DNA from: Verrucomicrobiia bacterium
GTDB taxonomy: Bacteria > Verrucomicrobiota > Verrucomicrobiia > Opitutales > Opitutaceae
DNA: 11,769 nt
Assembly: GCA_030424825.1 (NCBI GenBank)
Contig: JAUHWE010000076.1
Coordinates: forward strand, 1 to 11,769
Direction of reading: 5' to 3'
The stretch's first letter is position 1, and each line of letters begins with the position of its first letter. A program made the position numbers and the translations under genes. The notes beneath the pieces are model-generated. The model saw only the letters and a list, made by a program, of their open reading frames with translations, was not told the DNA's origin and searched no databases. Shown here piece after piece: positions 1-11,258 of this stretch.

Positions 1-309
1 GTTGGTGACAGAGAAAGTGATGACCGTGCGTTACAACGGTTGTTTAAAATACGCAACTTAGGCAGCAGCGCGATTCAACTCGCCTACGTCGCAGTGGGCT
101 GGCTGGATGGCGTAGTCGCTCATCGTGTGAATTCCTGGGATATTGCTGCAGGAGTGGCGATGGTCCAGGAGGCAAAGGGGGGTATTGCGTATTTTGATGC
201 GGATCCATTTCCGCTGCAGCGATTCGATGTGAAGAATCCGTCTTTTGGATACGCGTCAGGGTCGCCTGCTATTTTGAAGCAGATGCTTGGCGCCATGGGC
301 CGAGAGTAA
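1..309 (+). CDS. Inositol monophosphatase family protein, 3' end (partial)
   Basis: The reading frame is open from the first base and ends with TAA at 307-309, so only about the last 102 residues are present. The family removes phosphate from inositol monophosphates or related sugar or nucleotide phosphates, using Mg2+, in the cytoplasm. The fragment shows the C-terminal signature of the family: a LGSSAIQLAYVAVGWLDG segment followed by WDIAAG (codons from about 136). The Asp of that motif is a metal ligand in known family members. The EAKGG segment that follows fits the usual EAGG turn. The TTG at 40 is not the real start, because the homology continues upstream of it. The exact substrate (inositol phosphate, histidinol phosphate, fructose bisphosphate or PAP) cannot be told from this end. 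The gene converges on the permease gene with only 13 bp between the stop codons. Confidence 0.9.
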   Translation, partial: VGDRESDDRALQRLFKIRNLGSSAIQLAYVAVGWLDGVVAHRVNSWDIAAGVAMVQEAKGGIAYFDADPFPLQRFDVKNPSFGYASGSPAILKQMLGAMGRE

Positions 310-315
310 CCGGAG

Positions 316-342
316 CCCTGATCTAGAATTCCCAAATCAGGG
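316..342. terminator. Hairpin between convergent genes, possible bidirectional terminator
   Basis: A perfect 7-bp inverted repeat, CCCTGAT (316-322) and ATCAGGG (336-342), with a 13-nt loop, sits where the two convergent genes end. The loop carries the TAG stop of the permease gene. There is no T-run on either side, so this is a weak candidate for an intrinsic terminator. Confidence 0.25.
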
Positions 343-2119
343 GAATCAGGCAAACGGAAGTAATGAAGCAGATGATGTTGAGGGGTAGCCCCGCTTTCGT
401 GAAATCGGAAAACCGATACCCGCCTGCGCCGTAGACGTAGGTATTGGTCTGGTAGCCAATCGGTGTCGCGAAACTTGCCGAAGCGGCAATTGCTACCGCG
501 AAGAGAAACGGCCGCATACTGACCCCCAGCGTTTCCGCAATTCCGATGGCAAGGGTCGCCATGAGGACGGCAGCCGCATTGTTCGAGAGGGATTCTGTAA
601 GCATATTGGTCAGGAGATAGACGCAGGCCAGCATGACGTAGGGTTGCCATTCTGGGGCGACAAATCCGGTGACCGCTCCAATCAGATTGTTGGCGAGCCA
701 AAGAGAGGCTCCAGTTTCCTCCATGGCGACCCCCATGCCCAGCATGCCGTAGATGATAAAGAGCAGATTCCATTGGATCGCTCCGTAGCCGTCTTTAGGC
801 CGGATACAGTCCGTTACGAAGAGCACGACGCAGGCAACAATTGCCGCGACCGCAATCGGCGCCATTCCGGTAGCGGCTGCGACAACGACTCCAATTACGG
901 CGGTGAGAACGAGGCCGATTTTCAGTTTGGAAGTCTTAGACTGAATGGCGTTGTCGGACATGAGAATGATGTCTTCGCTGGCCCGCAGGTTCTGGATCGC
1001 ATTGTCCGTTCCCAACAATAGCAAGGTGTCCCCGAATTCCAGTCTCAAGGAGCCGATCTTTTCCCGCAGGTTTTTTCCCTTCCGATGTACCGCCAAAACC
1101 ACCATGCGGAAATGCTGGCGAAAATTCACTTCCTCGATCGTTTTGCCTAGTACATCAGAATTGGGTCCCAAGATCGCTTCAACCATCATTCCTTCGTGGG
1201 CCGCGATCTGCTCAAGTCCGAGCTTCTTTTCGCTTTCCAAATCCAGTCCGGAAATGCTGCGGGCTTTGGCGATTCCGGATGCCCGGCAAGCGAGAACGAG
1301 ACGATCTCCTTCCTTGAGGATGACTTTGTCCAGGCGGGTTTGCAAAGAAGAGCCAGATCTCACGATATCAATGACCCGGATTCCATTGACATTCTGGATG
1401 CCGGATTCCTTTAGGCTCTTGCCGATGACGTTTGATTCATGGTTAACAAAGGCTTCCGTGATGTATTCCCGTCGCTCTTCTTCAGTCAGAATCGAAGTAA
1501 GCGTTTCCCGAACCGGGAGGACCTTATTCCCAAAAATCGTCAGATAGACGAGACCTGCGATGAAAAGCGGGAGGCCGACCAAGGCAAATTCAAACATCCC
1601 CATCGGCGCCTCGCCAGCGGCCTCGGCTACGCCGCTCACGATGATATTGGTACTCGTTCCGAGCAGGGTGCAAGTGCCTCCTAGAATAGAGGCGTAGGAA
1701 AGGGGTATCAGTACTTTGGATCCGGATACTCCTATTTTCTTTGCCAAGGTCAGGACTACAGGAAGCAGGACCACCACAACGGGAGTATTGTTGATAAAGG
1801 CGGAGACCAGTCCCGCGAGGAACATAATGACGAGAAGAAACGGGCGATAGGTCAGTTTGGAAAGGCCTTGCAGGCTAATCGCTAGTCGGTCGATGACACC
1901 GCACTTGTCGAGGGCGGCGCTAATGACAAACATGGCCCCGACCGTAAGCGGCGCGGGATTTGAGAAAACGCTGAAAGCCTTCTCCGTCGGAAGAATTCCC
2001 GAAACCATCAAAATCGCGAAAAGGGAAAGGGCGGTGACGTCGGGAGGCAGCTTTTCCCAGACGAAGCTAGCCAACGCGAGGACGAGCAGCGTAAATACGA
2101 AGAAGATTTCCCAGGTCAT
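323..2119 (-). CDS. SLC13/DASS-type permease with two RCK_C (TrkA-C) domains
   Basis: This 598-residue inner-membrane protein is a probable Na+-coupled or H+-coupled anion transporter. Members of this family move dicarboxylates, sulfate or other anions; the substrate here cannot be assigned. Membrane segments fill residues 1-200 and 400-598. The first half carries the NNTPVVVVLLPV stretch (about 110-121) and a TSTN turn (155-158). The second half carries the matching SLSNNAAAV and ATPIGYQTNTYVYGAGGY stretches, the paired re-entrant-loop signature of the family. Between the halves lie two cytoplasmic RCK_C domains (about 223-285 and 311-378), which bind small regulatory ligands in related proteins. 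The ATG start is supported by the immediate membrane helix, though no Shine-Dalgarno sequence is visible. The gene begins 27 bp after the DUF420 gene and probably ends the heme A operon, with no obvious functional tie to it. Confidence 0.92.
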   Translation of the reverse strand: MTWEIFFVFTLLVLALASFVWEKLPPDVTALSLFAILMVSGILPTEKAFSVFSNPAPLTVGAMFVISAALDKCGVIDRLAISLQGLSKLTYRPFLLVIMFLAGLVSAFINNTPVVVVLLPVVLTLAKKIGVSGSKVLIPLSYASILGGTCTLLGTSTNIIVSGVAEAAGEAPMGMFEFALVGLPLFIAGLVYLTIFGNKVLPVRETLTSILTEEERREYITEAFVNHESNVIGKSLKESGIQNVNGIRVIDIVRSGSSLQTRLDKVILKEGDRLVLACRASGIAKARSISGLDLESEKKLGLEQIAAHEGMMVEAILGPNSDVLGKTIEEVNFRQHFRMVVLAVHRKGKNLREKIGSLRLEFGDTLLLLGTDNAIQNLRASEDIILMSDNAIQSKTSKLKIGLVLTAVIGVVVAAATGMAPIAVAAIVACVVLFVTDCIRPKDGYGAIQWNLLFIIYGMLGMGVAMEETGASLWLANNLIGAVTGFVAPEWQPYVMLACVYLLTNMLTESLSNNAAAVLMATLAIGIAETLGVSMRPFLFAVAIAASASFATPIGYQTNTYVYGAGGYRFSDFTKAGLPLNIICFITSVCLIPLIWEF

Positions 2120-2146
2120 GTGGTGTTGTTGGAGAGAAAGGCGACT

Positions 2147-2587
2147 TTAGACACTTTCCAACATAGGAAACCAAACATATATGGAAAAGTAAACCAATAC
2201 TCCTGTGACGGAGACATAAAGCCATATCGGATAGGTCCATCGGGCCCATTTTTTGTGGGATTCGTACCGCCCTTTGATCGCGAGAAAAAAGGTCCTTAAG
2301 ACGAGGGGGACAATCGCCATGGCGAGAAGGACGTGCGTCAGCAACATCAGCAAGTAGATCGCCTTGACGACCCCGTCCGCTCCGATGGGCCGGTTTTGCC
2401 AGTTAACCGACCATTTGTGAAATACGTACCCGGCCAGAAAAAACACTGAGACGATCAACGCAGCGGTCATGAATGAGCGATGCGCTTTTTCGTTTCCTTT
2501 TTTGATGCATATCAGTCCGCTGACAATGAGCACGGTCGCGATGGAGTTCAGAATCGCGTTGAGGGCAGGGATTTGATGGATGTCCAT
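2147..2587 (-). CDS. DUF420 (CtaM/YozB-like) membrane protein
   Basis: This 146-residue protein has four predicted membrane helices (about residues 10-25, 38-58, 75-98, 120-142). It matches the DUF420 family in length and in the pattern of a conserved His-Lys near HKWSVNW, a LLTHVLLA helix, and a KWARWTYPIWLYVSVTGVLVY-like last helix. In Staphylococcus the DUF420 protein CtaM is needed for activity of an aa3-type oxidase, so an assembly role for heme-copper oxidase is likely here too. I chose the ATG at 2587 over an in-frame ATG at 2788. The upstream 67 codons lie inside ctaB, are rich in Arg and Ser, and do not resemble the family. This start gives a 17-bp gap after the ctaB stop. The position directly behind ctaA and ctaB supports the assignment. 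Confidence 0.88.
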   Translation of the reverse strand: MDIHQIPALNAILNSIATVLIVSGLICIKKGNEKAHRSFMTAALIVSVFFLAGYVFHKWSVNWQNRPIGADGVVKAIYLLMLLTHVLLAMAIVPLVLRTFFLAIKGRYESHKKWARWTYPIWLYVSVTGVLVYFSIYVWFPMLESV

Positions 2588-2604
2588 GGGCGTCTCGTTA
2601 TTCT

Positions 2605-3537
2605 TTACCAGCCTTGTATCCAGCGATCGATCACGAGACTGAAAAGCACGGCGGGAAGATAGAGGATCGAGTTGAGAAACAGGCTTTTGGCAGAGGCGTC
2701 CCGGTTCTCCGAACGCATGAACGCGAGCGCGTACTTGAGGAACCACAATCCGAAAATCGTGGCGACTACACCGTAGATCCACTGGCAATAGCCCAGAAAA
2801 ACAGGAAGCAAACTCACTGGAATCAATGCCACCGTGTTGATCACGGCCCAGCGGGCCACGCGGTCACCGCCTTGGTCGATAACGGAAAGCATGGGGAATC
2901 CTCCCTTCCGGTAGTCGTCGCGAAAGAGCCAGGCGATGGCCATGAAATGAGGAATCTGCCAAATCGCGAGTATCCCGAAGAGAATCCAGCCGAGCGTGGT
3001 AATCGTTCCTTCTGCAGCGGCCCAGCCAATCAAGGGTGGGATCGCGCCGGGAATGGCGCCAAACTCGGTCGCCCAGCGGGTCGCCTTTTTCATGGGCGTG
3101 TAGATGACCACGTAGCTGATAATCGTTGCCGCGCCCAAGAGCCCGGCGAGTGGATTGGCTCCGTAGTAAAGTTGCAGAGACCCGATCACTGACAGCGCCA
3201 GACCAAAAATCAATGCCGCTTGCGGTGTGATCAGCTGAGCCGGTATGGGGCGGTCGCGAGTCCGTTCCATGACGGAATCCGGACCGCGTTCGAGCCATTG
3301 GTTCAGTGTTGCCGCACCCGCCGCGCACAGGGCCGTTCCGCAAACGAAATTGAGCAAAGACGTTAAATCGCGTTGCGGCAGGGCGGCCAAATAGCCAACC
3401 AGCGCGGTGATCACTGAGAGCAGGCTCAAGCGCGGCTTGGTAAGTTCGTAGAATCCAGACCACGGAAAGGCTTTCCTGCTCGTTTGATCGATCAATTCGC
3501 TGGCGGTTAAAAGATGGTTACTCTGCTTGAGGCTCAT
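2605..3537 (-). CDS. ctaB: Protoheme IX farnesyltransferase (heme O synthase)
   Basis: This 310-residue polytopic membrane protein is of the UbiA prenyltransferase superfamily. It attaches the farnesyl group to heme B to form heme O, the substrate of the CtaA encoded upstream. The first Asp-rich active-site loop is seen in modified form as NQWLERGPDSVMERTRDRP (about residues 80-98), with the family's RTRxRP. The second conserved loop is YTPMKKATRWATEFGAIPGA (about 146-165), followed by PPLIGWAA. The segment IPHFMAIAWLFRDDYRKGGFPML matches the third conserved loop. The ATG overlaps the TGA of ctaA in an ATGA arrangement, which suggests translational coupling. Length and number of helices are normal for CtaB/CyoE. 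An N-terminal extension of about 25 polar residues precedes the first helix. Confidence 0.97.
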   Translation of the reverse strand: MSLKQSNHLLTASELIDQTSRKAFPWSGFYELTKPRLSLLSVITALVGYLAALPQRDLTSLLNFVCGTALCAAGAATLNQWLERGPDSVMERTRDRPIPAQLITPQAALIFGLALSVIGSLQLYYGANPLAGLLGAATIISYVVIYTPMKKATRWATEFGAIPGAIPPLIGWAAAEGTITTLGWILFGILAIWQIPHFMAIAWLFRDDYRKGGFPMLSVIDQGGDRVARWAVINTVALIPVSLLPVFLGYCQWIYGVVATIFGLWFLKYALAFMRSENRDASAKSLFLNSILYLPAVLFSLVIDRWIQGW

Positions 3538-4583
3538 GCGTGACCAGTTTTTTCCAATTCGCCGAGCGGAGCGTCCGTTTCCGGCGCGCGTTCAGACAGG
3601 TGTGGGGCTTCCAATCGAAATTTCAAGCTTCGTAGAGTCATCATCCAACAAATTGAGAGAAGAAAGGCCCCATTCAGCATGTGAAACGTGGCCGAATGTG
3701 GATTCCGTACGGTCCAAATGACCATGGCGCCGAGATAGATTTGAATTCCCAGCAGGGCAATCAGCGCCATGGCGGACTTGCCTAAGGCTTTGCGGCTCTG
3801 CGCTTCCCGCCAGATTTTCACTACGAACGCGATAATCGCGATGCTCACCACGATGGCCCCGACCCTGTGGGCGAAATGGATGGCGACTTTGAAATTAAAT
3901 GCGGGTGGGATCCAGTAGCCGTCGGGGTGACTGTAGGGGAAGCTGGTAATGGCCAGACCGGCATAGCTGTGCCGCATCACGGCTCCGATGATCAGCTGAA
4001 GAATAATCGTCAGACAGGCGATCAGGCCGAAAAGGCCCACGCTGCGAGAGGGGGCCGCGGCGAATCCCGCTTGCCGCTGGATCCACGACTTGCTGTTCAT
4101 CACGGCGAAAGCGACGAGTAGGCAGAGAAAAATCTGGGCCAAAGTGGCGTGAGCGACGGCAAAGGTTTGGGCGTAGAGATTGTGGTCGATCTCGAGATTC
4201 AGCGCGTCGAGCTTGACGCGGAGGCCGCCGAGCAACCCTTGGGTCACGACGAGGATTACCAGCCAGACCCCCAGTTTCCGGATTGGCTGGCCCGCTTTCA
4301 GTATGAAAGCACTGACGCAAAGCGCGATAGACAGCAGTCCCATGACCGCGCCGAGGAGGCGATGGCTGTGCTCTGCCATCATATCTTCATTCTCCAGCCA
4401 CCCTTCGGGATTGATCGAGCCGTTGGAGAGCGGCCAGTCAAGGAAGGCCATCCCTGCCCGGATGCTGGTGGTGAATCCGCCCGCGTAGAGGAGAAAGGTG
4501 ATCCAAATGAGCGCGCAAAAGCCAAACCAAAATAAGAATGGCTTGTAAGCCGCATTATGGAACGCTTCTGGTTTTGTCGTCAT
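3534..4583 (-). CDS. ctaA: Heme A synthase (COX15/CtaA family)
   Basis: This 349-residue inner-membrane protein has about eight helices. It oxidises the C8 methyl of heme O to the formyl group of heme A for aa3-type cytochrome oxidase. Conserved His residues that bind heme in the family are visible in all four expected places: MAEHSHRLLG (His72, His74), FAVAHATLAQ (His145), HFAHRVGA (His236, His239) and FHMLNGAFL (His301). The early TSIRAGMAFLDWP stretch matches the 'TRSGLAxxDWP' region. The ATG at 4583 is preferred to a TTG at 4637, because the latter adds 18 polar residues and would overlap the divergent gene's leader. No Shine-Dalgarno sequence precedes it. It is the first gene of a leftward set with ctaB, the DUF420 gene and probably the permease. 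Confidence 0.95.
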   Translation of the reverse strand: MTTKPEAFHNAAYKPFLFWFGFCALIWITFLLYAGGFTTSIRAGMAFLDWPLSNGSINPEGWLENEDMMAEHSHRLLGAVMGLLSIALCVSAFILKAGQPIRKLGVWLVILVVTQGLLGGLRVKLDALNLEIDHNLYAQTFAVAHATLAQIFLCLLVAFAVMNSKSWIQRQAGFAAAPSRSVGLFGLIACLTIILQLIIGAVMRHSYAGLAITSFPYSHPDGYWIPPAFNFKVAIHFAHRVGAIVVSIAIIAFVVKIWREAQSRKALGKSAMALIALLGIQIYLGAMVIWTVRNPHSATFHMLNGAFLLSICWMMTLRSLKFRLEAPHLSERAPETDAPLGELEKTGHA

Positions 4584-4636
4584 CGGAAAGTTGATTGCAT
4601 TAGGTGAGTAGTGATAGTTTATACGATTTCCAGACA

Positions 4637-5545
4637 ATGAAGGGGAAACTGAAAAATATTAGTTGGGTGAATAAGCAGTTTAAGCAGGCCTCGATCGGAA
4701 TCTTGCTGGTTGGATTTTTGCTTGGGTGCAGTCAAAGGGAGGAATCTCTCGGGGAAGGGGACACCGAAGGGCACTTGCTGATCGGTACGATTACTGACGT
4801 CAATGAGGCGGCGGGTCTGCTCGAAGTGGCTCATGAAGATATTCCTGATCTGATGCCGGCCATGACCATGAAGTTCGAAGTCTCCGCTGGCGACTTGAAG
4901 AATGCGAAGGTCGGGCAGAAAATTCGGGCCCGGCTTGTTAGGGATGAAAACGGGGCGTTCCAGCTAATCAAGATCTGGCCCCTCGACGAACAGCTTTCGA
5001 GTGACTTGAAACGCGTTAATAAACGTCTGCAAGAACAGGCCAAGGCGCTTCCTTCTGGTTACTACTATGGAGAAGGAGACGATTCGCCCGACTTCGCCTT
5101 GCTTGACCAGTTTGGTGAGGTCGTGACCAGCGATCAGCTTGAGGGGAAGCCGTTGATGCTGAATTTCATTTTTACTCGCTGCACGGATGCCAACATGTGC
5201 CCGCTCTCCACGTCGAAGATGGCGCAACTGCAGAAATTGGCCCGAGCGGAAGAGCTGGATGTGAACTTTGTTTCCATCACGTTGGACCCGCAGTTCGATA
5301 CGCCCGGTGTGCTTCGCCAATACGCAGAAGCTTACGGGATCGAAGGAAGTAACTTCAAGTTTGTCACCGGCCCGAAGTCCGCCGTGCGTAATCTAGTCAA
5401 GTCCTACGGAGTCACCTCGATCGACAAAGTGGATACGATCATGCACAGCTTGGCCACGGTCTTGATCGACGAAAGCGGATCTATAGCCAAGCGGTCCGAT
5501 AAAAGCGCCTGGACCCCCGAGGAGTTTCTGGAAGCGCTCAGGTAA
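4637..5545 (+). CDS. SCO-family copper chaperone lipoprotein with N-terminal CusF-like domain
   Basis: This 302-residue exported lipoprotein probably loads copper into the CuA site of cytochrome c oxidase. The signal peptide ends in a lipobox LLGC with Cys31. Residues about 45-115 form a CusF-like copper-binding domain with the motif MPAMTMKF (73-80), whose Met residues are typical Cu(I) ligands. A short helical linker follows. Residues about 150-302 are a SCO1/SenC thioredoxin fold: PDFALLDQFG, the copper site Cys182 and Cys188 in FTRCTDANMCPL (CX5C spacing), the VSITLDPQFDTP strand, and the third ligand His270 in TIMHSLATVLID. The ATG at 4637 is favoured over a GTG at 4604 because it gives a normal lipoprotein signal. 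The gene is divergent from ctaA across 53 bp, which fits shared control of oxidase assembly. The fusion of both copper domains in one chain is the notable point. Confidence 0.93.
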   Translation: MKGKLKNISWVNKQFKQASIGILLVGFLLGCSQREESLGEGDTEGHLLIGTITDVNEAAGLLEVAHEDIPDLMPAMTMKFEVSAGDLKNAKVGQKIRARLVRDENGAFQLIKIWPLDEQLSSDLKRVNKRLQEQAKALPSGYYYGEGDDSPDFALLDQFGEVVTSDQLEGKPLMLNFIFTRCTDANMCPLSTSKMAQLQKLARAEELDVNFVSITLDPQFDTPGVLRQYAEAYGIEGSNFKFVTGPKSAVRNLVKSYGVTSIDKVDTIMHSLATVLIDESGSIAKRSDKSAWTPEEFLEALR

Positions 5546-5614
5546 GCGTTTTTCGAATCTTATCGATCTGTAACAAATCCAAACGCTTGCCTCTCGATTC
5601 GGAATCCCAGCGGG

Positions 5615-5976
5615 GGCACTTCCGCCCGGGTCGTCGGCCCCTACCTAAACTTCCGTAGGGCTGGCGCTTGCGCCATGCCGCGTCGGTTCGGATAACCTTG
5701 AGGATAAACTAACGCGGCACAGCGCGAGCGCTGGCCCTACAATCGCTACGCTTCCTATGGGAATGGTCCTGCCGAGGGCGTCGGCCCCTACCTTATCTTC
5801 CGTAGGGCTGGCGCTTGCGCCATGCCGCGTCGGTTCGGATAACCTTGAGGATGAACTAACGCGGCACAGCGCAAGCGCTGGCCCTACAATCGCTACGCTT
5901 CCTATAGGAGTGGTCCTGCCCGGGGCTTCGGTCCCTACCTAAACTTCCGTAGGGCTGGCGCTTGCGCCTTGCCGCG
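5615..5976. repeat. 147-bp tandem repeat with internal palindromes (2 full + 1 truncated copy)
   Basis: The unit recurs with an exact 147-bp period: the anchor GTAGGGCTGGCGCTTGCG begins at 5655, 5802 and 5949. Copies 1 (about 5632-5778) and 2 (5779-5925) are nearly identical. Copy 3 (5926-5976) stops after its left palindrome arm. Within each full unit two 28-bp arms form an imperfect inverted repeat: 5655-5682 with 5713-5740, and 5802-5829 with 5860-5887. The mismatches between arms are all transitions. A smaller GCCGA...TCGGC hairpin precedes each GGCCCCTACC. It resembles dispersed REP/MITE-like intergenic repeats. No transposase or RAYT gene is in the window. Confidence 0.9.
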
Positions 5977-6272
5977 AATGCGACTCAAAATTCAACCAAA
6001 CAGGGCACTTGGCAACAGAGGTGGTGAATCGGAACCATTGACACTCTCTGGGACAGAGTTCATTTAGTTGGAGGTAAATCGATCCCATTGTAGTACCTTC
6101 GCTCTCGAAGTGACGTGCCGTGTCTGAGCCCTACGATTTTGAATTGTGAGACCCCTCGCTCTGAGCCAAGCTAATGATAGACCGCCGGAATGAATCAACG
6201 AGTGAAACGCAGACCTTCCGAAAGTGCGCCGAAAGTAAATATATTAAAAAGCCTAACCATTATTTTGAGTCG
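5977..6272. other. Gene-free stretch upstream of the lipoprotein gene
   Basis: No convincing gene, RNA or repeat was seen here. Small features include a CTTCG-ctct-CGAAG hairpin near 6098-6112 and an AT-rich patch at 6236-6250. An open frame from an ATG at 6174 runs in phase into the lipoprotein gene, but it places 33 polar residues ahead of the signal peptide and is not believed to be the start. Confidence 0.5.
6216..6245 (+). promoter_or_regulatory. Weak candidate promoter for the lipoprotein gene
   Basis: TATATT at 6240-6245 could serve as a -10 box, 27 bases ahead of the ATG at 6273. The best -35 with 18-nt spacing is TTCCGA (6216-6221), which is a poor match. The call rests mainly on the AT-rich -10 in an otherwise GC-rich stretch. 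Confidence 0.2.
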
Positions 6273-7280
6273 ATGAAGAAAAGGAATGTATTAGCTAGTT
6301 TAGCGGCCTCTGCAGTCGCATTGGTTTTAGTCGGTTGTTCTGGTTCGGCAAACGGTCAATCAGGTAGGGTGGGCCCGGGCCCGGGCGGGTTTGAGGACGG
6401 TCATATTATAGGCCAGCTTGCCAAGTGGGACCGGAAAGCGACTCCTATGCTGACACTTAGAGTCCATGGTGCCGGCATGCTGCAGACGTTCGCCCCGATT
6501 TCTAGTGATGGTTCGTTCAAATTGCCGCTGCCTGAAGTTCCGGTCAAAGGGAACTTTGGAACGATGAATTGCGGTGGCCAAGGCAAGGGTAATATCGTCG
6601 TTGCCTATGATGTTTCTCTACTGACGAAGTTGCCAGGTTTCAATACACCCGGGAGATGGGATCGGGAGCATAGCGTCATTGGGGGTGCCTTATTTTCTGA
6701 CGAATACTATAGCAAGAATATTGGCAAGGAAGGTGGGAAGCGAGCCCAGTGGCTTCACAGTCATGTGGAGCGAATGGTCGAAGCGGGCGAATGCAACAAC
6801 GTCAACGCCTTCCCGTTGGAGGAAGGATGGAACGCGTTCACCGTTGTCACGGGTCCCAGTGGTGGGCCCCACACCTATAACGTAGGTCTGGATAGTGATC
6901 TCGGTTGGTATTGGTACGGTTTTCCGGAAGATATCAGCAAAGCCAATACATCCAAACCGGTTGCGGAAACCGACTCTAAGCCGTCAATGGGAGGATCGAA
7001 AGTATCGTCAGAATGGCTCGCCGGAGAATGGGAGGGCACTCAAGTCGATGTCACCATGAAACTGCGTCTGCAACCTTCCGGTAATGTTTGGTTGGAGAGC
7101 ATCGAAGGTGGGAGTAAAAAGACTATGGAAGGAACGTGGTCGCTTAGTGATGACGCGTTTGTTCTGGAAATCCCAGAGGGTAGGCTTCCTTTCAACATAG
7201 AGCAAATCTCTCGTACCAGTTTTCGACTCTTTGGCCCAACTTCGGGCGGTAGCGACATCGTATTTTCCCGAAACAACTGA
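6273..7280 (+). CDS. Lipoprotein of unknown function with C-terminal lipocalin-like region
   Basis: This 335-residue protein was not recognised. The ATG at 6273 starts a clear lipoprotein signal peptide (MKKRNVLASLAAS, lipobox LVGC with Cys22), so it should be anchored in a membrane facing the periplasm or outside. A short Gly-Pro-rich linker (GPGPGG, encoded by repeated gggccc) follows. Residues about 40-235 form an unassigned region with many aromatic residues and two Cys. Residues about 245-335 (beginning SSEWLAGEWEG, with TMEGTWSL further on) have the WxGxW pattern and alternating strands of small lipocalin-like beta barrels, which is suggestive only. The upstream ATG at 6174 is rejected because it hides the signal peptide. 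The gene converges with the LTxxQ-motif gene across 29 bp. It has no recognisable operon partner. Confidence 0.75.
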   Translation: MKKRNVLASLAASAVALVLVGCSGSANGQSGRVGPGPGGFEDGHIIGQLAKWDRKATPMLTLRVHGAGMLQTFAPISSDGSFKLPLPEVPVKGNFGTMNCGGQGKGNIVVAYDVSLLTKLPGFNTPGRWDREHSVIGGALFSDEYYSKNIGKEGGKRAQWLHSHVERMVEAGECNNVNAFPLEEGWNAFTVVTGPSGGPHTYNVGLDSDLGWYWYGFPEDISKANTSKPVAETDSKPSMGGSKVSSEWLAGEWEGTQVDVTMKLRLQPSGNVWLESIEGGSKKTMEGTWSLSDDAFVLEIPEGRLPFNIEQISRTSFRLFGPTSGGSDIVFSRNN

Positions 7281-7309
7281 CCTTGCAGTGAATGATCGAG
7301 GACTTCCGG

Positions 7310-8125
7310 TTAGTAGCGTTTTAGATGATTTTCTATGTAAGCGATCAGCTGGCTTTCCGTGAGGACTTTACTAGCCAATGAAATCTCAGCCTTAACGACG
7401 TCTGCTACCTGTAGATCTTCGAATTCTGGAGCGATGTATTTTGCGTATTCACTCGAGGGCCCCAAATGAATGTCTAGGTATTGTTCAATCAACTGGTTTT
7501 CTTGATTTCCGTCGATATTGATATTCTTCGTTAAGCGTTCTACAGTGGTGGTTGCTCTACTCTTTTGGTTCTTCCTCTGTTCAAGGTATTGAGCTTCTTG
7601 ATAAAGAACCATTTGATTTTCATTCAAAATGTCTGGAAGTGCCCGCAAAAAATGTTGAAAAGGTGGTAGATCTGCTAGCAATTTGTCTGCTTCCTCCTCC
7701 GTTATCAGAGCCATGGCTTTTTTACTCCTGATGTAGGAATGTTCTTCACTCAATTGAAAGACTTGCTTTAGAGATTCGACCTGTTGCGGTTCTAGAAAAA
7801 CGATGCTATCTATCTTTTTTAGTTCCGCCTCATGAGATCTTCTAATCCCTAACATGTTGTTGCGATGCTGCATCTCTAGATTATCCTGCAGCGGTATTAG
7901 TTCATTTAGGCGCTTTTCGAGGTCTTCTATTTTCTGAATATAATTAGAGACCTCGTTTTCAGGAAAACCTGCTTCGCGGTTCAATGCATCATGCTTTTTT
8001 TCGATTGATGAATTCAGAGTTTGCTCCTCATGATTTGGGTTTCCCTCCTTCTGTGGTTTTATTAGCCAGCCTAACACAAAGCCAGCGACCAATGCGAACA
8101 CGAGTCCTGCAAGTCTCTTTTTCAT
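7310..8125 (-). CDS. Membrane-anchored coiled-coil protein with four LTxxQ-like motifs
   Basis: This 271-residue protein has unknown function. Residues 1-22 form a single signal-anchor helix (MKKRLAGLVFALVAGFVLGW), and the rest is predicted to be periplasmic and mostly helical. A charged coiled coil covers about 55-105. Four motifs of the LTxxQ type follow: LEPQQ (111-115), LNENQ (167-171), IDGNQ (204-208) and LTESQ (255-259). They are spaced 56, 37 and 51 residues apart, so the distal part looks like two copies of a two-motif helical unit. LTxxQ motifs mark the Spy/CpxP family of envelope-stress chaperones and metal-sensing repressors, so an envelope-stress role is possible but unproven. The start is well supported by TGAGG five bases ahead of ATG. 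A TATAAA on the minus strand (8164-8159) could be its -10 box. Its base composition is more AT-rich than its neighbours. Confidence 0.75.
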   Translation of the reverse strand: MKKRLAGLVFALVAGFVLGWLIKPQKEGNPNHEEQTLNSSIEKKHDALNREAGFPENEVSNYIQKIEDLEKRLNELIPLQDNLEMQHRNNMLGIRRSHEAELKKIDSIVFLEPQQVESLKQVFQLSEEHSYIRSKKAMALITEEEADKLLADLPPFQHFLRALPDILNENQMVLYQEAQYLEQRKNQKSRATTTVERLTKNINIDGNQENQLIEQYLDIHLGPSSEYAKYIAPEFEDLQVADVVKAEISLASKVLTESQLIAYIENHLKRY

Positions 8126-8170
8126 GAGTGCCTCACAACTTTGTCTTCCGGTCTCGTATTTATAGAATCC

Positions 8171-9035: not shown

Positions 9036-9275
9036 TCAATGTGCTACCCTGACTACTGCAATCGTGATCGCTTCATCGTAGATTTGGTAGAGAATTCGGT
9101 AGTCACCTTGTCTGATTCGGTACTTTTCCTCTCCCGAGAGTTTCTTGGAATGCGGGGGTCGGGGATCTGTGGACAAAGTTCGAATTCTTTCGATGATCCG
9201 ATCTCCATCCTTCTTTTGGATCTTTTCTAGCTCTTTGGCGGCCGATCGTTTGATCTCGATCTTAAAGTCGGCCAT
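9036..9275 (-). CDS. RelE/ParE-family toxin, truncated by a TGA in the C-terminal motif
   Basis: This 79-residue protein has the RelE/ParE fold, a small basic toxin family that cleaves mRNA in the ribosome or poisons gyrase. The visible pattern is KIEIKRSAAKELEKIQKK (about 5-22), DPRPPHSKKLSG (38-49), YRIRQGDYRILYQI (52-65) and VVRVAH (74-79). The family normally continues HRREVYR. Here the codon after His79 is TGA, and the same frame then reads REVYKR before a TAG at 9015-9017. One change from CGA to TGA therefore explains the truncation. The lost tail includes the Tyr that is catalytic in RelE-type toxins, so the product may be inactive. The ATG at 9275 follows AGGAG by only two bases; a GTG at 9278 is the alternative. 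It overlaps the antitoxin gene by 14 bp, the usual arrangement. Confidence 0.88.
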   Translation of the reverse strand: MADFKIEIKRSAAKELEKIQKKDGDRIIERIRTLSTDPRPPHSKKLSGEEKYRIRQGDYRILYQIYDEAITIAVVRVAH

Positions 9276-9822
9276 CACTCCTCATGCGTTTCAGGAAGGA
9301 TTCGAAATCCATCGTGGGTTCGCTTTCACGATCCCTGAATGCTTGGAGATCATCGAGATCTTCGGACAGTGCTTCCCTGATTGCTTGGTTCACGCGCTCT
9401 GAGACCGATGACGAGGCTTCAGCGGCTTCATTTCCGAATTCGCTGAGCAGCTCCTTCACGCTTCTTTGATTTCCTCTGTAATGCTCCAAGACCAAATCCT
9501 GAATTTCTTCGGAGGGATAATCGGTAACAGATATCGCTTCGTCCCTGACTGTAGGAAATAGACCTAAAAACCTACCTGCTTTGCGAAAATGGTAGTGAAC
9601 CATAGCACCGGTACTCGTCGGGACTAGATGGAGGATTGAATGATCATCAGAAACAAAGCCCATTCCAGGATCGCAGCATTCTATTCCTTCAGCGTTTGCG
9701 TTTTCCTCTTTGAGTATTTCACTATCCCAATCAAACTCATTGTAGAGTTTCAATGCATTCTCGGACGAAGGATCCTTTAGATCCTCGCTGGAAAAATCAT
9801 GCAGCTGTATCCATACATTCAT
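9262..9822 (-). CDS. Antitoxin tail fused to an unknown N-terminal domain
   Basis: This 186-residue protein is encoded directly upstream of, and overlapping, the toxin. Residues about 140-186 (VSERVNQAIREALSEDL, then DLQAFRDRESEPTMDFESFL) resemble the C-terminal half of RelB/Phd-type antitoxins, where a helix and an EPT..S/FE..L strand wrap around the toxin. Most antitoxins of this sort are 70-90 residues and start with a DNA-binding domain. Here that is replaced by about 128 residues that I do not recognise, with motifs CCDPGMGFVSDDHSILHLV (49-67), MVHYHF (74-79) and LGLFPTVRDEA (86-96). I chose the ATG at 9822, six bases past the attC end. An in-frame ATG at 9933 would encode attC sequence and part of the Sel1 gene in another frame. 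Both the antitoxin role and the border of the fusion are inference. Confidence 0.72.
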   Translation of the reverse strand: MNVWIQLHDFSSEDLKDPSSENALKLYNEFDWDSEILKEENANAEGIECCDPGMGFVSDDHSILHLVPTSTGAMVHYHFRKAGRFLGLFPTVRDEAISVTDYPSEEIQDLVLEHYRGNQRSVKELLSEFGNEAAEASSSVSERVNQAIREALSEDLDDLQAFRDRESEPTMDFESFLKRMRSDGRL

Positions 9823-9827
9823 TTTAT

Positions 9828-9887
9828 ACTTAACGCCGAACTCAGTCGACGGAGCTTGTCTCCGTTGACTGGAGTGATTTGTTAGAT
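9828..9887 (-). other. Integron attC recombination site behind the Sel1-repeat gene
   Basis: This 60-bp site has every structural part of an attC. Read on the plus strand it has core ACTTAAC (9828-9834) and core GTTAGAT (9881-9887), matching RYYYAAC and GTTRRRY. Five-nt unpaired spacers follow: GCCGA (9835-9839) and GATTT (9876-9880). The L boxes are ACTCAGTC (9840-9847) and GACTGGAGT (9867-9875), which pair with one extrahelical base. A terminal hairpin GACGGAG-CTTGT-CTCCGTT closes the site. The extra base lies on the left arm when read on the minus strand, which fits an attC downstream of a leftward gene. The Sel1 gene's stop codon lies inside it. Confidence 0.9.
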
Positions 9888-10459
9888 TCTTGTTCAAACT
9901 GTTGGACCAAGCGTTCTGCTTCCGAGATCTCATCGACTGTCATTTCACTCTTTGCTCCATCAAAGGCGTCTCTCGTAAACTTGTCGTTATCAATACCTCC
10001 GATCATTAACCAAAAATAGGCCCTTACATTGTCCTTGGGCAAGCCCTGCCCAAGGTGATGCAATATTCCTAATTTTCGCTGGGCCGCAGGTGCTCCTTGT
10101 TCCCCTACTCTTAGGTAGTATTCAGCTGACTTTTTAAAATCCACTTCAACACCATGCCCAAATTCGAACATACCACCCAATGCGTATAACGCCATTGGAT
10201 GATTCTGTTTCTCCGCTAACTCATACCAATACTTGGCTTTCTGGAGGTCCAACGAAACCCCAGACTTTCCGACATGGTAATAGTAGCCTAGTTTGGCTTG
10301 AGAATTAGAATCTCCTTTTTCGGCATTTAAGCGTACTCCATCAATATACTCTTTTTCCTCTTTGCTGGTAGTTTCCTCAGCAATAGAAGGCATCATCAAT
10401 ATTGATGCTATAAAAAGTGTGTATCTTGCGAGCGTCATCGAGATTTGTTTCCGATCTAA
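9834..10459 (-). mobile_element. Integron gene cassette carrying the Sel1-repeat gene
   Basis: The predicted cassette runs between the G^TT cleavage points of the attC at 10454-10521 and the attC at 9828-9887, 626 bp in all. It holds one gene that starts 15 bases after the core site and ends inside its own attC, the compact layout typical of integron cassettes. The borders are inferred from the known integrase cleavage position, not from an observed excision. Confidence 0.8.
9842..10438 (-). CDS. Secreted Sel1-repeat (SLR) protein
   Basis: This 198-residue protein has a signal peptide (MTLARYTLFIASILMMPSIA, about 1-20) and three Sel1-like TPR-related repeats of about 36 residues at 43-79, 80-115 and 116-151. 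They show the AxxxLGxxYxxGxGVxxDxxKAxxWYxxAAxxG pattern in segments such as AKLGYYYHVGKSGV, YALGGMFEFGHGV and RKLGILHHLGQGL. Sel1 proteins act as scaffolds for protein-protein contact, and the partner here is unknown. The last 14 residues (SNKSLQSTETSSVD, 185-198) are encoded by the attC site. 'NKSL' tails of this kind are often seen in integron cassette proteins. No strong ribosome site precedes the ATG, and expression probably depends on read-through from upstream. A periplasmic location is inferred from the signal peptide. Confidence 0.88.
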   Translation of the reverse strand: MTLARYTLFIASILMMPSIAEETTSKEEKEYIDGVRLNAEKGDSNSQAKLGYYYHVGKSGVSLDLQKAKYWYELAEKQNHPMALYALGGMFEFGHGVEVDFKKSAEYYLRVGEQGAPAAQRKLGILHHLGQGLPKDNVRAYFWLMIGGIDNDKFTRDAFDGAKSEMTVDEISEAERLVQQFEQESNKSLQSTETSSVD

Positions 10460-10521
10460 CGCTAAGGTGTCACGATGGAGGGGGCGCAGCCCCCGGAATT
10501 GTGACCACCGATTAGTTGTGC
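10454..10521 (-). other. Integron attC recombination site behind the thioredoxin-like gene
   Basis: This 68-bp site is built like the one at 9828-9887. On the plus strand it has core ATCTAAC (10454-10460, RYYYAAC) and GTTGTGC (10515-10521, one mismatch to GTTRRRY). Five-nt spacers are GCTAA (10461-10465) and GATTA (10510-10514). The L boxes are GGTGTCAC (10466-10473) and GTGACCACC (10501-10509), pairing with one extrahelical base. The terminal structure has GAT/ATT pairs, GGA/GGA bulges and a GGGGGC-gca-GCCCCC hairpin. The extrahelical base is again on the left arm in minus-strand reading. The thioredoxin-like gene's TAG lies in the spacer. Confidence 0.88.
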
Positions 10522-11098
10522 TTTTTGATTTATTGCGATTACTGATCTAACTCTTTTCAGACCTTCGTCAGAATTTGCATACACGCCTTCACTTTTGATG
10601 ACCTGCTTATCTGAGTCTAAAACTATCCAGCGACAGTTTTCGAGAGGATCGTTCTCAGGAATTAATTCTTTGGAATCTGGATCGGTGCTAGGCACAAGAG
10701 CAGTAACGAAGTGATCTTCTACTAGTTGCTTGGTTGTGAAGTAGTCCATGAAGCATCCGAGAGAGTAGAACAGCTTGCTTTTACTTGGGTGTCTTTCGTT
10801 GTAGATGACGATGAACAGTAGTTTGTCTTCAGTCTTTGCTTTGGTTAATCCTTCTTTTATCGAATAAGACGGTTCGTTTATAAAAAACGGGTGCCTTCCT
10901 GATTGGCTAGCCCCGTATACTTTGGGATCAATCGTGCTACTTGTCGTTTTGTGCTGTGATGACTGGACATCGGAAGTCAGTGCCTCCTTGGCTTTCCGCT
11001 TCGGCTTGTAGATTTTCTCGACGAGAAACCAAACTGCGGTGATGCCACCTAAGATCGTGCAAACTACTAAAACTAATTCCATTTCTTTTTCTACCTAA
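10460..11098 (-). mobile_element. Integron gene cassette carrying the thioredoxin-like gene
   Basis: The predicted cassette lies between the lone core site GTTAGGT (minus strand, 11099-11093) and the attC at 10454-10521, giving 639 bp. The gene starts 11 bases after the core site and ends inside the attC. It is the first cassette in the transcribed direction. The site upstream of it is not a full attC, so it could be an attI relic or a secondary integration site. Confidence 0.75.
10462..11082 (-). CDS. Membrane-anchored thioredoxin-fold-like protein without a CXXC site
   Basis: This 206-residue protein has an N-terminal helix (MELVLVVCTILGGITAVWFL, 1-20), a basic and polar linker (to about 65), then a globular domain at about 70-183. 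The domain pattern of a helix (SIKEGLTKAKTEDK), a hydrophobic strand (LLFIVIY, 88-94), a helix with SLGCFMDYFTTKQLVEDHF (107-125), and strands FVTALV and CRWIVLDSDKQVI resembles thioredoxin-like proteins of the DUF255/thioredoxin-7 kind. The usual CXXC after the first strand is replaced by NERHPSKS, so redox activity of the normal kind is unlikely. The fold assignment is by eye. Residues 188-206 are encoded by the attC. The stretch AGGT of the upstream core site lies ten bases before the ATG and could act as a weak ribosome site. Confidence 0.68.
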   Translation of the reverse strand: MELVLVVCTILGGITAVWFLVEKIYKPKRKAKEALTSDVQSSQHKTTSSTIDPKVYGASQSGRHPFFINEPSYSIKEGLTKAKTEDKLLFIVIYNERHPSKSKLFYSLGCFMDYFTTKQLVEDHFVTALVPSTDPDSKELIPENDPLENCRWIVLDSDKQVIKSEGVYANSDEGLKRVRSVIAINQKAQLIGGHNSGGCAPSIVTP

Positions 11099-11099
11099 C
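11093..11099 (-). other. Lone integron core site (GTTAGGT) upstream of the first cassette
   Basis: The minus-strand heptamer GTTAGGT fits GTTRRRY and sits at the same place relative to the next gene as the core sites of the two attC sites. I found no matching L boxes or inverse core at a proper distance. The minus-strand bases before it contain two further GTTA boxes (GTTATCG, GTTACAA), reminiscent of integrase-binding repeats of attI sites. That comparison is loose. Confidence 0.5.
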
Positions 11100-11120
11100 A
11101 ACTTTTTGTAACATTTTCCG

Positions 11121-11149
11121 ATAACACCCCAGGATTTCGGGGGATTCAA
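11121..11149 (-). promoter_or_regulatory. Candidate promoter driving the cassette genes
   Basis: On the minus strand, TTGAAT (11149-11144) and TGTTAT (11126-11121) are separated by exactly 17 bases, each matching four of six consensus positions. The predicted transcript would start near 11114, about 30 bases ahead of the first cassette gene. That is where an integron's cassette promoter would be expected. The -10 box lies in one of the repeated ATAACACCCC elements. Confidence 0.35.
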
Positions 11150-11220
11150 CTCGAAACTAGGTGAATACTCTAATTTTTCACGTCGTTCTAATGCGATAAC
11201 ACCCCGAAATGGGGTGTTAT
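11121..11220. repeat. 100-bp nested inverted repeat with three ATAACACCCC elements
   Basis: The decamer ATAACACCCC occurs directly at 11121-11130 and 11196-11205, and inverted at 11211-11220. The last two form a perfect 10-bp hairpin with loop GAAAT. Alternatively, 11121-11142 pairs with 11202-11220 over 19 bp with a 3-nt AGG bulge, so two exclusive folds compete. Inner bases (GTGAA/TTCAC near 11162-11182) extend the long fold weakly. A direct repeat AATGCGATAA flanks the perfect hairpin (11190-11199, 11226-11235). It lies just downstream of the dehydratase gene and could end its transcript, but no T-run follows. Confidence 0.7.
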
Positions 11221-11258
11221 GAGAAAATGCGATAATTCCGAGCGGGACCGGCTGCGGC

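Follow-up and report, generated by a model that had tools for sequence, protein, structure and literature searches.

Two one-gene units, each ending in a hairpin that resembles an integron attC site, lie side by side on a contig from an Opitutales genome, raising the questions of whether they are true cassettes, where the array ends, how it came to stand apart from an integrase (IntI) and what it carries. We refer to the whole stretch of DNA analysed, the 11,769-bp contig C519, as the window; its source genome is a 5.04-Mb draft split into 811 contigs, with a completeness of 89% and a contamination of 5.5%. An earlier note, made from the letters alone, had described the locus as a CALIN-like cluster (attC sites with no integrase nearby) on a probable verrucomicrobial chromosome.

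We compared the genes around the array with those of related genomes. The nearest named-genome relatives of the window's BaxI belong to MAGs labelled Opitutaceae or Opitutales (88%) and to Verrucomicrobiae bacterium DG1235 (71%). On the low-coordinate side of the array, the gene order IMPase, CitMHS, DUF420, CtaB, CtaA, Sco1 and BaxI is conserved in three genomes of the same genus (G003, G005 and G010) at 77–84% DNA identity. This synteny argues against mis-binning of the contig and, together with the presence of attCs and the lack of IntI described below, bears out the chromosomal CALIN proposed at the outset. The G+C content of the cassette DNA is 43–44%, compared with 54% for positions 1–5545 of the window. 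Within the contig, a ManD-like gene flanks the array on one side, and a ParE-type toxin gene followed by BaxI flanks it on the other; the description of a cluster between housekeeping genes therefore needs qualifying, as its low-coordinate neighbours are first the toxin gene and only then BaxI. No relative compared at its ManD or BaxI locus retains the order from ManD to BaxI, and neither an empty site nor a cassette-precise gain or loss was seen. In the five genomes of the genus whose BaxI is nearest to that of the window (88–95%), no attC match at E ≤ 0.01 was found among the candidates scored, at most 103 per genome. One protein of the operon preceding BaxI in G010 was not found in the source genome at E ≤ 1e-20.

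Several other features of this region were recorded. A stretch of 2.6 kb between Sco1 and BaxI (5558–8167), which includes two genes without a confident family, is missing in G003, G005 and G010; at 5624–5976 there are three copies of a repeat with 147-bp spacing, and the same repeat occurs on contigs C563, C715 and C631. The interval separating the ManD-like gene from the first cassette contains a 20-nt inverted repeat (11112–11131 and 11210–11229, 90% complementary), an 11-base part of which was found in only three of 227 loci, all of them copies of the window region. The source genome also has part of another ManD-like dehydratase gene, 93% identical over 84 aa, at positions 1–1080 of L211 (contig C631), where the contig end truncates it. 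Scanning for promoters and terminators returned 2 and 3, respectively, compared with 2.7 and 2.7 in shuffles.

We searched for attC sites using two covariance models. The first, R1, was trained on 6 attCs from arrays next to IntI in G022 and G029, two further genomes of the family, and was run on the window with filters off, while the second, R2, is a broader model of 51 sites from which the source genome was excluded. Both sites named in the earlier note passed with R1 and with R2, and the next R1 match in the window after these two was at E = 0.18. The features of the array and of its low-coordinate end are:

11093–11102, minus strand: left boundary core, a weak sequence match, either GTTAGGT (G at 11099) or the overlapping GTTGTTA (G at 11102)
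10462–11082, minus strand: gene of cassette A, 206 aa, an N-terminal helix and a domain of thioredoxin fold that lacks CxxC and is related to the C terminus of PD-T4-6
10454–10521, minus strand: attC1, end of cassette A, R' core GTTAGAT with G at 10460; R1 54.3 bits, E = 5.6e-13; R2 35.9 bits, E = 3.6e-7
9842–10438, minus strand: gene of cassette B, 198 aa, Sel1 repeats (PF08238, E = 3.3e-21)
9828–9887, minus strand: attC2, end of cassette B, R' core GTTAAGT with G at 9834; R1 32.5 bits, E = 3.8e-7; R2 35.6 bits
9430–9822, minus strand: third cassette gene, residues 1–131 of an apparent chimera, own attC missing; 52% over 130 aa to P0064 (134 aa)
9262–9429, minus strand: antitoxin remnant, fused in frame, first ~19 residues absent; 71% over 52 aa to P0065
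9036–9278, minus strand: ParE-type toxin gene (PF05016, 45.8 bits against a cut-off of 23), 70% identical to ParE of G007

By eye, attC1 and attC2 share the layout R''(7)-5-L''(9)-loop-L'(8)-5-R'(7), and both carry an extra base in L'' that corresponds to an unpaired column of the model. Folding of the window's plus strand, the bottom strand of the sites, gave lower energies than folding of the top strand (−13.7 versus −11.8 and −12.6 versus −10.1 kcal/mol). A crude pattern scanner, whose top score in 20 shuffles was 12.82, placed attC2 above that value (14.05) and attC1 below it (12.75), and an Rfam search of five loci yielded no match at the gathering score. In the R2 training alignment of 51 sites, 93.0% of cells were paired, covariation was 0.485 versus 0.134 when shuffled and 12 of 15 pairs showed changes on both sides, with a weak excess of pair types (a count that 38 of 500 shuffles also attained); for 20 source-genome sites outside the training set, 87.3% of cells were paired, covariation was 0.645 versus 0.204 and both-side changes occurred in 13 of 15 pairs, both alignments having been produced by fitting to the model, a procedure that works in its favour. 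Shifting the pair partners by 1–3 columns lowered the paired cells to 22–40%. The window thus contains two neighbouring attCs in the same orientation, both on the minus strand, with conserved structure, compensatory changes and the L'' extra base.

If a circular cassette is inserted at G^TT, the R'' of its attC should fit the core that stands at the 5′ end of that cassette, not the adjacent one. We scored this by eye in 13 adjacent attC pairs from five arrays of the source genome (C164, C563, C171, C715 and the window) and found that R'' matched the 5′ core perfectly (4/4 variable bases) in 10 pairs and the adjacent downstream core in none. The summed scores were 44 for the 5′ core and 18 for the adjacent core, and none of 200,000 shuffles reached 44. 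The first count and shuffle had been made on 6 own-genome pairs, and widening to 13 brought two failures (C171, 0/4; C715, 1/4); in addition, C563-2 scored 3/4, and one C164 site pairs an ATC box with a GAT-type core. Cassette B is among the ten, the attC2 R'' (ATCTAAC) being perfectly complementary to GTTAGAT, the 5′ core of this cassette. Three more own-genome pairs outside the 13, with weak sites and degraded cores, scored 2/4 (C752), 4/4 (C545) and 4/4 (C590). Arrays of relatives contain 61 possible pairs, and among the 49 that were scored the 5′ core was the better match in 26, the adjacent core in 7, and 16 were ties; these pairs derive from 70 hits, with six at E ≤ 0.01 omitted (one cut by a contig end, two in L048 and one each in L057, L061 and L065). 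This pairing offers a simple way to recognise real cassettes without an empty site, one that proved effective here in Opitutales. A reading of the hairpins as transcription terminators or other attC-lookalike repeats, to which the flagging of attC2 on the plus strand by a simple terminator scan and the lack of separation of attC1 from shuffles by the pattern scanner might point, is in effect refuted, with almost no probability left to it, by the covariance-model E-values of 5.6e-13 and 3.8e-7, by the covariation in the 51 and 20 sites and by an R'' that fits the distant and not the adjacent core, a pattern that terminators do not predict.

Insertion of units at G^TT is therefore borne out by cassette B and by 10 of the 13 own-genome pairs. 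For cassette A, the left core is a bare 7-base match, and the R'' of the cassette (GCAC) fits GTTAGGT at 1/4 variable bases and the overlapping GTTGTTA at 2/4; this poor fit makes the left boundary of cassette A uncertain. Accordingly, of the two attCs and third core in one orientation that had been proposed, the attCs stand and the third core is weak, and the proposed cassette lengths of 639 and 626 bp hold if the left core is GTTAGGT with its G at 11099. The coincidence of cassette borders with gene ends was correctly placed, the stop codons of gene A (10462) and gene B (9842) falling inside the attC sites.

We next consider the integrase and other arrays of the genome. In agreement with the earlier note, no integrase was found in the 11.8-kb contig, and no IntI exceeded the TIGR02249 cut-off in the assembled source genome (89% complete). 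The same attC type does recur elsewhere in the genome, with R1 and R2 matches on further contigs: 22 sites at E ≤ 0.01 lie on eight contigs, window included, that were chosen because R1 hit them, and no IntI was found there. The window array is one of several CALINs in the source genome. As a check of specificity among same-genus genomes, with no more than 103 candidates scored in each, the attC matches at E ≤ 0.01 numbered at least 2 in G002, 3 in G004, 10 in G006, 6 in G007 and 10 in G009, with at least 10 in the source genome; G001, G003, G005, G008 and G010 had none among the candidates scored.

Recombinases on C164, C718 and C230 were tried as the genome's IntI and rejected. The C164 tyrosine recombinase, at a contig end beside an array of seven attC hits, gave a partial match of 96 bits (TIGR02249 positions 2–174); its best plasmid matches are annotated as recombinase or unannotated, and the one inspected (Sinorhizobium) adjoins an IS91 transposase. 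Against ten IntI, its main blastp rows were at 28–42% identity, compared with 39.5–58% for a family IntI against nine others (first 180 residues). The recombinases on C718 and C230, which we take to be XerC/D-like, matched the model in two separate stretches with the middle part missing. The seven-attC array of C164 (L067) lies between a DUF772-domain transposase (2–835) and an IS91-type recombinase (3911–4485), a context that suggests IS activity at array ends; C171, which also has attC hits, terminates in an IS91-type transposase. On C715 (L186), a reverse transcriptase gene (6027–7385, with PF00078 in 6717–7385) lies ~1–2 kb from two attC hits. We presume that it is group II intron-like, and no intron was found at this locus in Rfam at the gathering score.

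Both ends of the window array lie inside the contig, with the ManD-like gene at one and ParE and BaxI at the other, which argues against a complete integron that appears as a CALIN by assembly only, its integrase being on an unassembled stretch or another contig; furthermore, the best own-genome match to the IntI model resembles a recombinase beside an IS91 transposase. We regard such a hidden integron as very improbable, even though an IntI could sit in a gap of a genome that is 89% complete and in 811 contigs, same-genus G006 has two IntI over the cut-off and G004 a partial one below the cut-off at a contig edge, and draft genomes tend towards overestimation of CALINs, according to PMC9024848.

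The earlier note had called integrons best known in Proteobacteria and the cluster worth describing in this kind of organism for that reason. A wider survey showed integrons to be common in the phylum: IntI over the TIGR02249 cut-off was found in 107 of 387 Verrucomicrobiota genomes searched and in 15 of the 57 genomes covered by the search of relatives, the source genome being included in both. As a separate observation, the reading frame of Opitutales IntI loci, measured from the first possible start, runs 88–219 aa upstream of the TIGR02249 match in 11 of 12 cases (L007–L017; in L006 it runs 15 aa), and 10 of these 11 extensions are similar to each other. Outside the order (L018, L022, L023, L030, L033 and L034), the frame runs 0–50 aa upstream.

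The array also extends further than the two cassettes first described, comprising at least three, the last of which seems to be a chimera. An ATG at 9822, directly after the core GTTAAGT, opens a third cassette gene that runs to about 9430–9455, and in the junction region, between 9430 and 9455, resemblance to the G007 DNA fades out. G700 has a homologue of this third gene (31% to P0064) that is flanked by an attC on either side; its start follows an identical GTTAAGT, and its stop falls inside an attC whose R'' matches GTTAAGT at 4/4. The window's third gene is thus a cassette gene whose attC is gone. No attC was found at E ≤ 1 near third-gene homologues in G518 and G429, and a scan of viral contigs with P0064 gave no match.

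In the gene at 9262–9822, which overlaps the ParE gene, residues 132–183 are the part that matches P0065; the RHH hits of P0065, weak and below the Pfam cut-off, are the basis of its label as an RHH antitoxin. Relatives of ParE occur in 8 other genomes, and in all four that were inspected (G007, G044, G043 and G026) an intact antitoxin overlaps ParE, with a length of 73 aa from an MKRAT- or MSKAT-type start (85 aa as listed for G026). Compared with G007 and the three other relatives, the N-terminal RHH region in the window is incomplete, the first ~19 residues being missing. On the basis of these observations, made in one fragmented assembly, the gene at 9262–9822 seems to be a chimera of the third cassette gene and an antitoxin gene. 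A long-standing two-domain antitoxin family, as opposed to a deletion chimera, is an unlikely alternative: it would agree with a frame that stays open through the join and with an overlap with ParE that is typical of antitoxin genes, but a protein search gave, apart from the query, 2 relatives that each match a single half, and the intact short antitoxin precedes ParE in 4/4 inspected relatives. In a search of the open-licence PMC literature for a cassette–antitoxin fusion, none of the three papers listed seemed, from title and abstract, to deal with one.

We then examined the cargo. The cassette A protein matched PADLOC PD-T4-6 at E = 1.1e-22 over profile positions 438–556 of 564 only, and the same C-terminal match was obtained for 8/8 tested proteins of its group, itself included. 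AlphaFold gave a model with a mean pLDDT of 81.9 and a pTM of 0.66, for which the best Foldseek matches in the PDB were thioredoxins (best E = 1.7e-5); the N-terminal helix, we infer, is a membrane anchor. No Pfam family matched the cassette A domain. The protein has 61 relatives besides itself, and among ten of these, Pfam identified a CAP12-type TIR in one, TIR_2 in one and an Mrr nuclease in three, with nothing above cut-off in the remaining five. Among 387 genomes of the phylum (up to 8 candidates scored per genome), the cassette A gene was found in its own genome only, while elsewhere it was found at one viral-contig locus and on one plasmid. The cassette B gene was likewise found in its own genome only among 372 genomes of the order at E ≤ 1e-35 (again up to 8 candidates per genome). 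As cargo, cassette A is defence-like, and it indicates that several defence architectures have a thioredoxin-fold domain in common. Phage-defence genes as integron cassette cargo have already been published (PMC12444791, which cites 2025 papers in Science and Nature Microbiology), and the resistance that a Streptococcus PD-T4-6 gene gave in Lactococcus was very mild (PMC11514479).

Taken together, it is highly probable that the window holds a CALIN on an Opitutales chromosome whose cassettes were inserted by an IntI acting in trans or since lost, and whose end has decayed by fusion. Each cassette would have come in as a circle holding a single gene with its attC; the attC bottom strand (the window's plus strand) would fold into a hairpin with the extra base, and recombination would take place at G^TT. 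Probably, either the first cassette came in at a simple genomic GTT of the attG-like kind or an original platform has been deleted; work on non-classical attG sites is cited in PMC12444791. A deletion may then have taken the attC of the third cassette and the start of the resident antitoxin gene, joining the cassette gene in frame to the antitoxin remainder just upstream of ParE. At the sequence level, the chimera shows decay of an array end and capture of a cassette gene by a resident gene.

We also put forward, as a tentative and on balance doubtful reading, that the chimera is a working antitoxin that anchors the dead array by addiction to ParE, and that cassette A is a compact defence gene with a shared sensor domain. 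If the chimera works, its C terminus would neutralise the toxin under the start of the cassette gene, and loss of the array end would expose cells to ParE; the array would then be held by gene-fusion addiction and not by an intact toxin–antitoxin cassette. On the same reading, the thioredoxin-fold domain of cassette A would be a sensor common to PD-T4-6 and the TIR- or Mrr-fused relatives.

Finally, we compared the locus with known systems. In line with the definition of a CALIN in PMC9024848 (at least two attCs) and PMC9668308 (less than 4 kb apart), the window has its attCs close together and no IntI nearby; it differs in its doubtful left core and in a downstream end where a cassette gene has fused with an antitoxin gene. 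Complete integrons of the family, for example those of G022 (L052) and G030 (L056), are alike in attC architecture and cassette arrays, but theirs adjoin IntI, whereas the window has only two attCs and a third cassette without attC, and no intI was found on the contig or, above the cut-off, anywhere in the assembled genome. The RHH-type antitoxin/ParE pair of G007 (L218) shares with the window a ParE that is 70% identical and a conserved C-terminal part of the antitoxin, while in the window a 131-residue cassette protein replaces the first ~19 antitoxin residues. PD-T4-6 (PADLOC PDLC04063) resembles the cassette A domain in its last ~120 profile positions; cassette A lacks positions 1–437 and has a short N-terminal helix instead, and in some cassette A homologues the related domain is fused to TIR or an Mrr nuclease. 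The kind of locus is not new, as CALINs are known and Verrucomicrobiota are listed among integron-bearing phyla (PMC8618304); it is the chimeric end and the defence-like cargo that are worth following.
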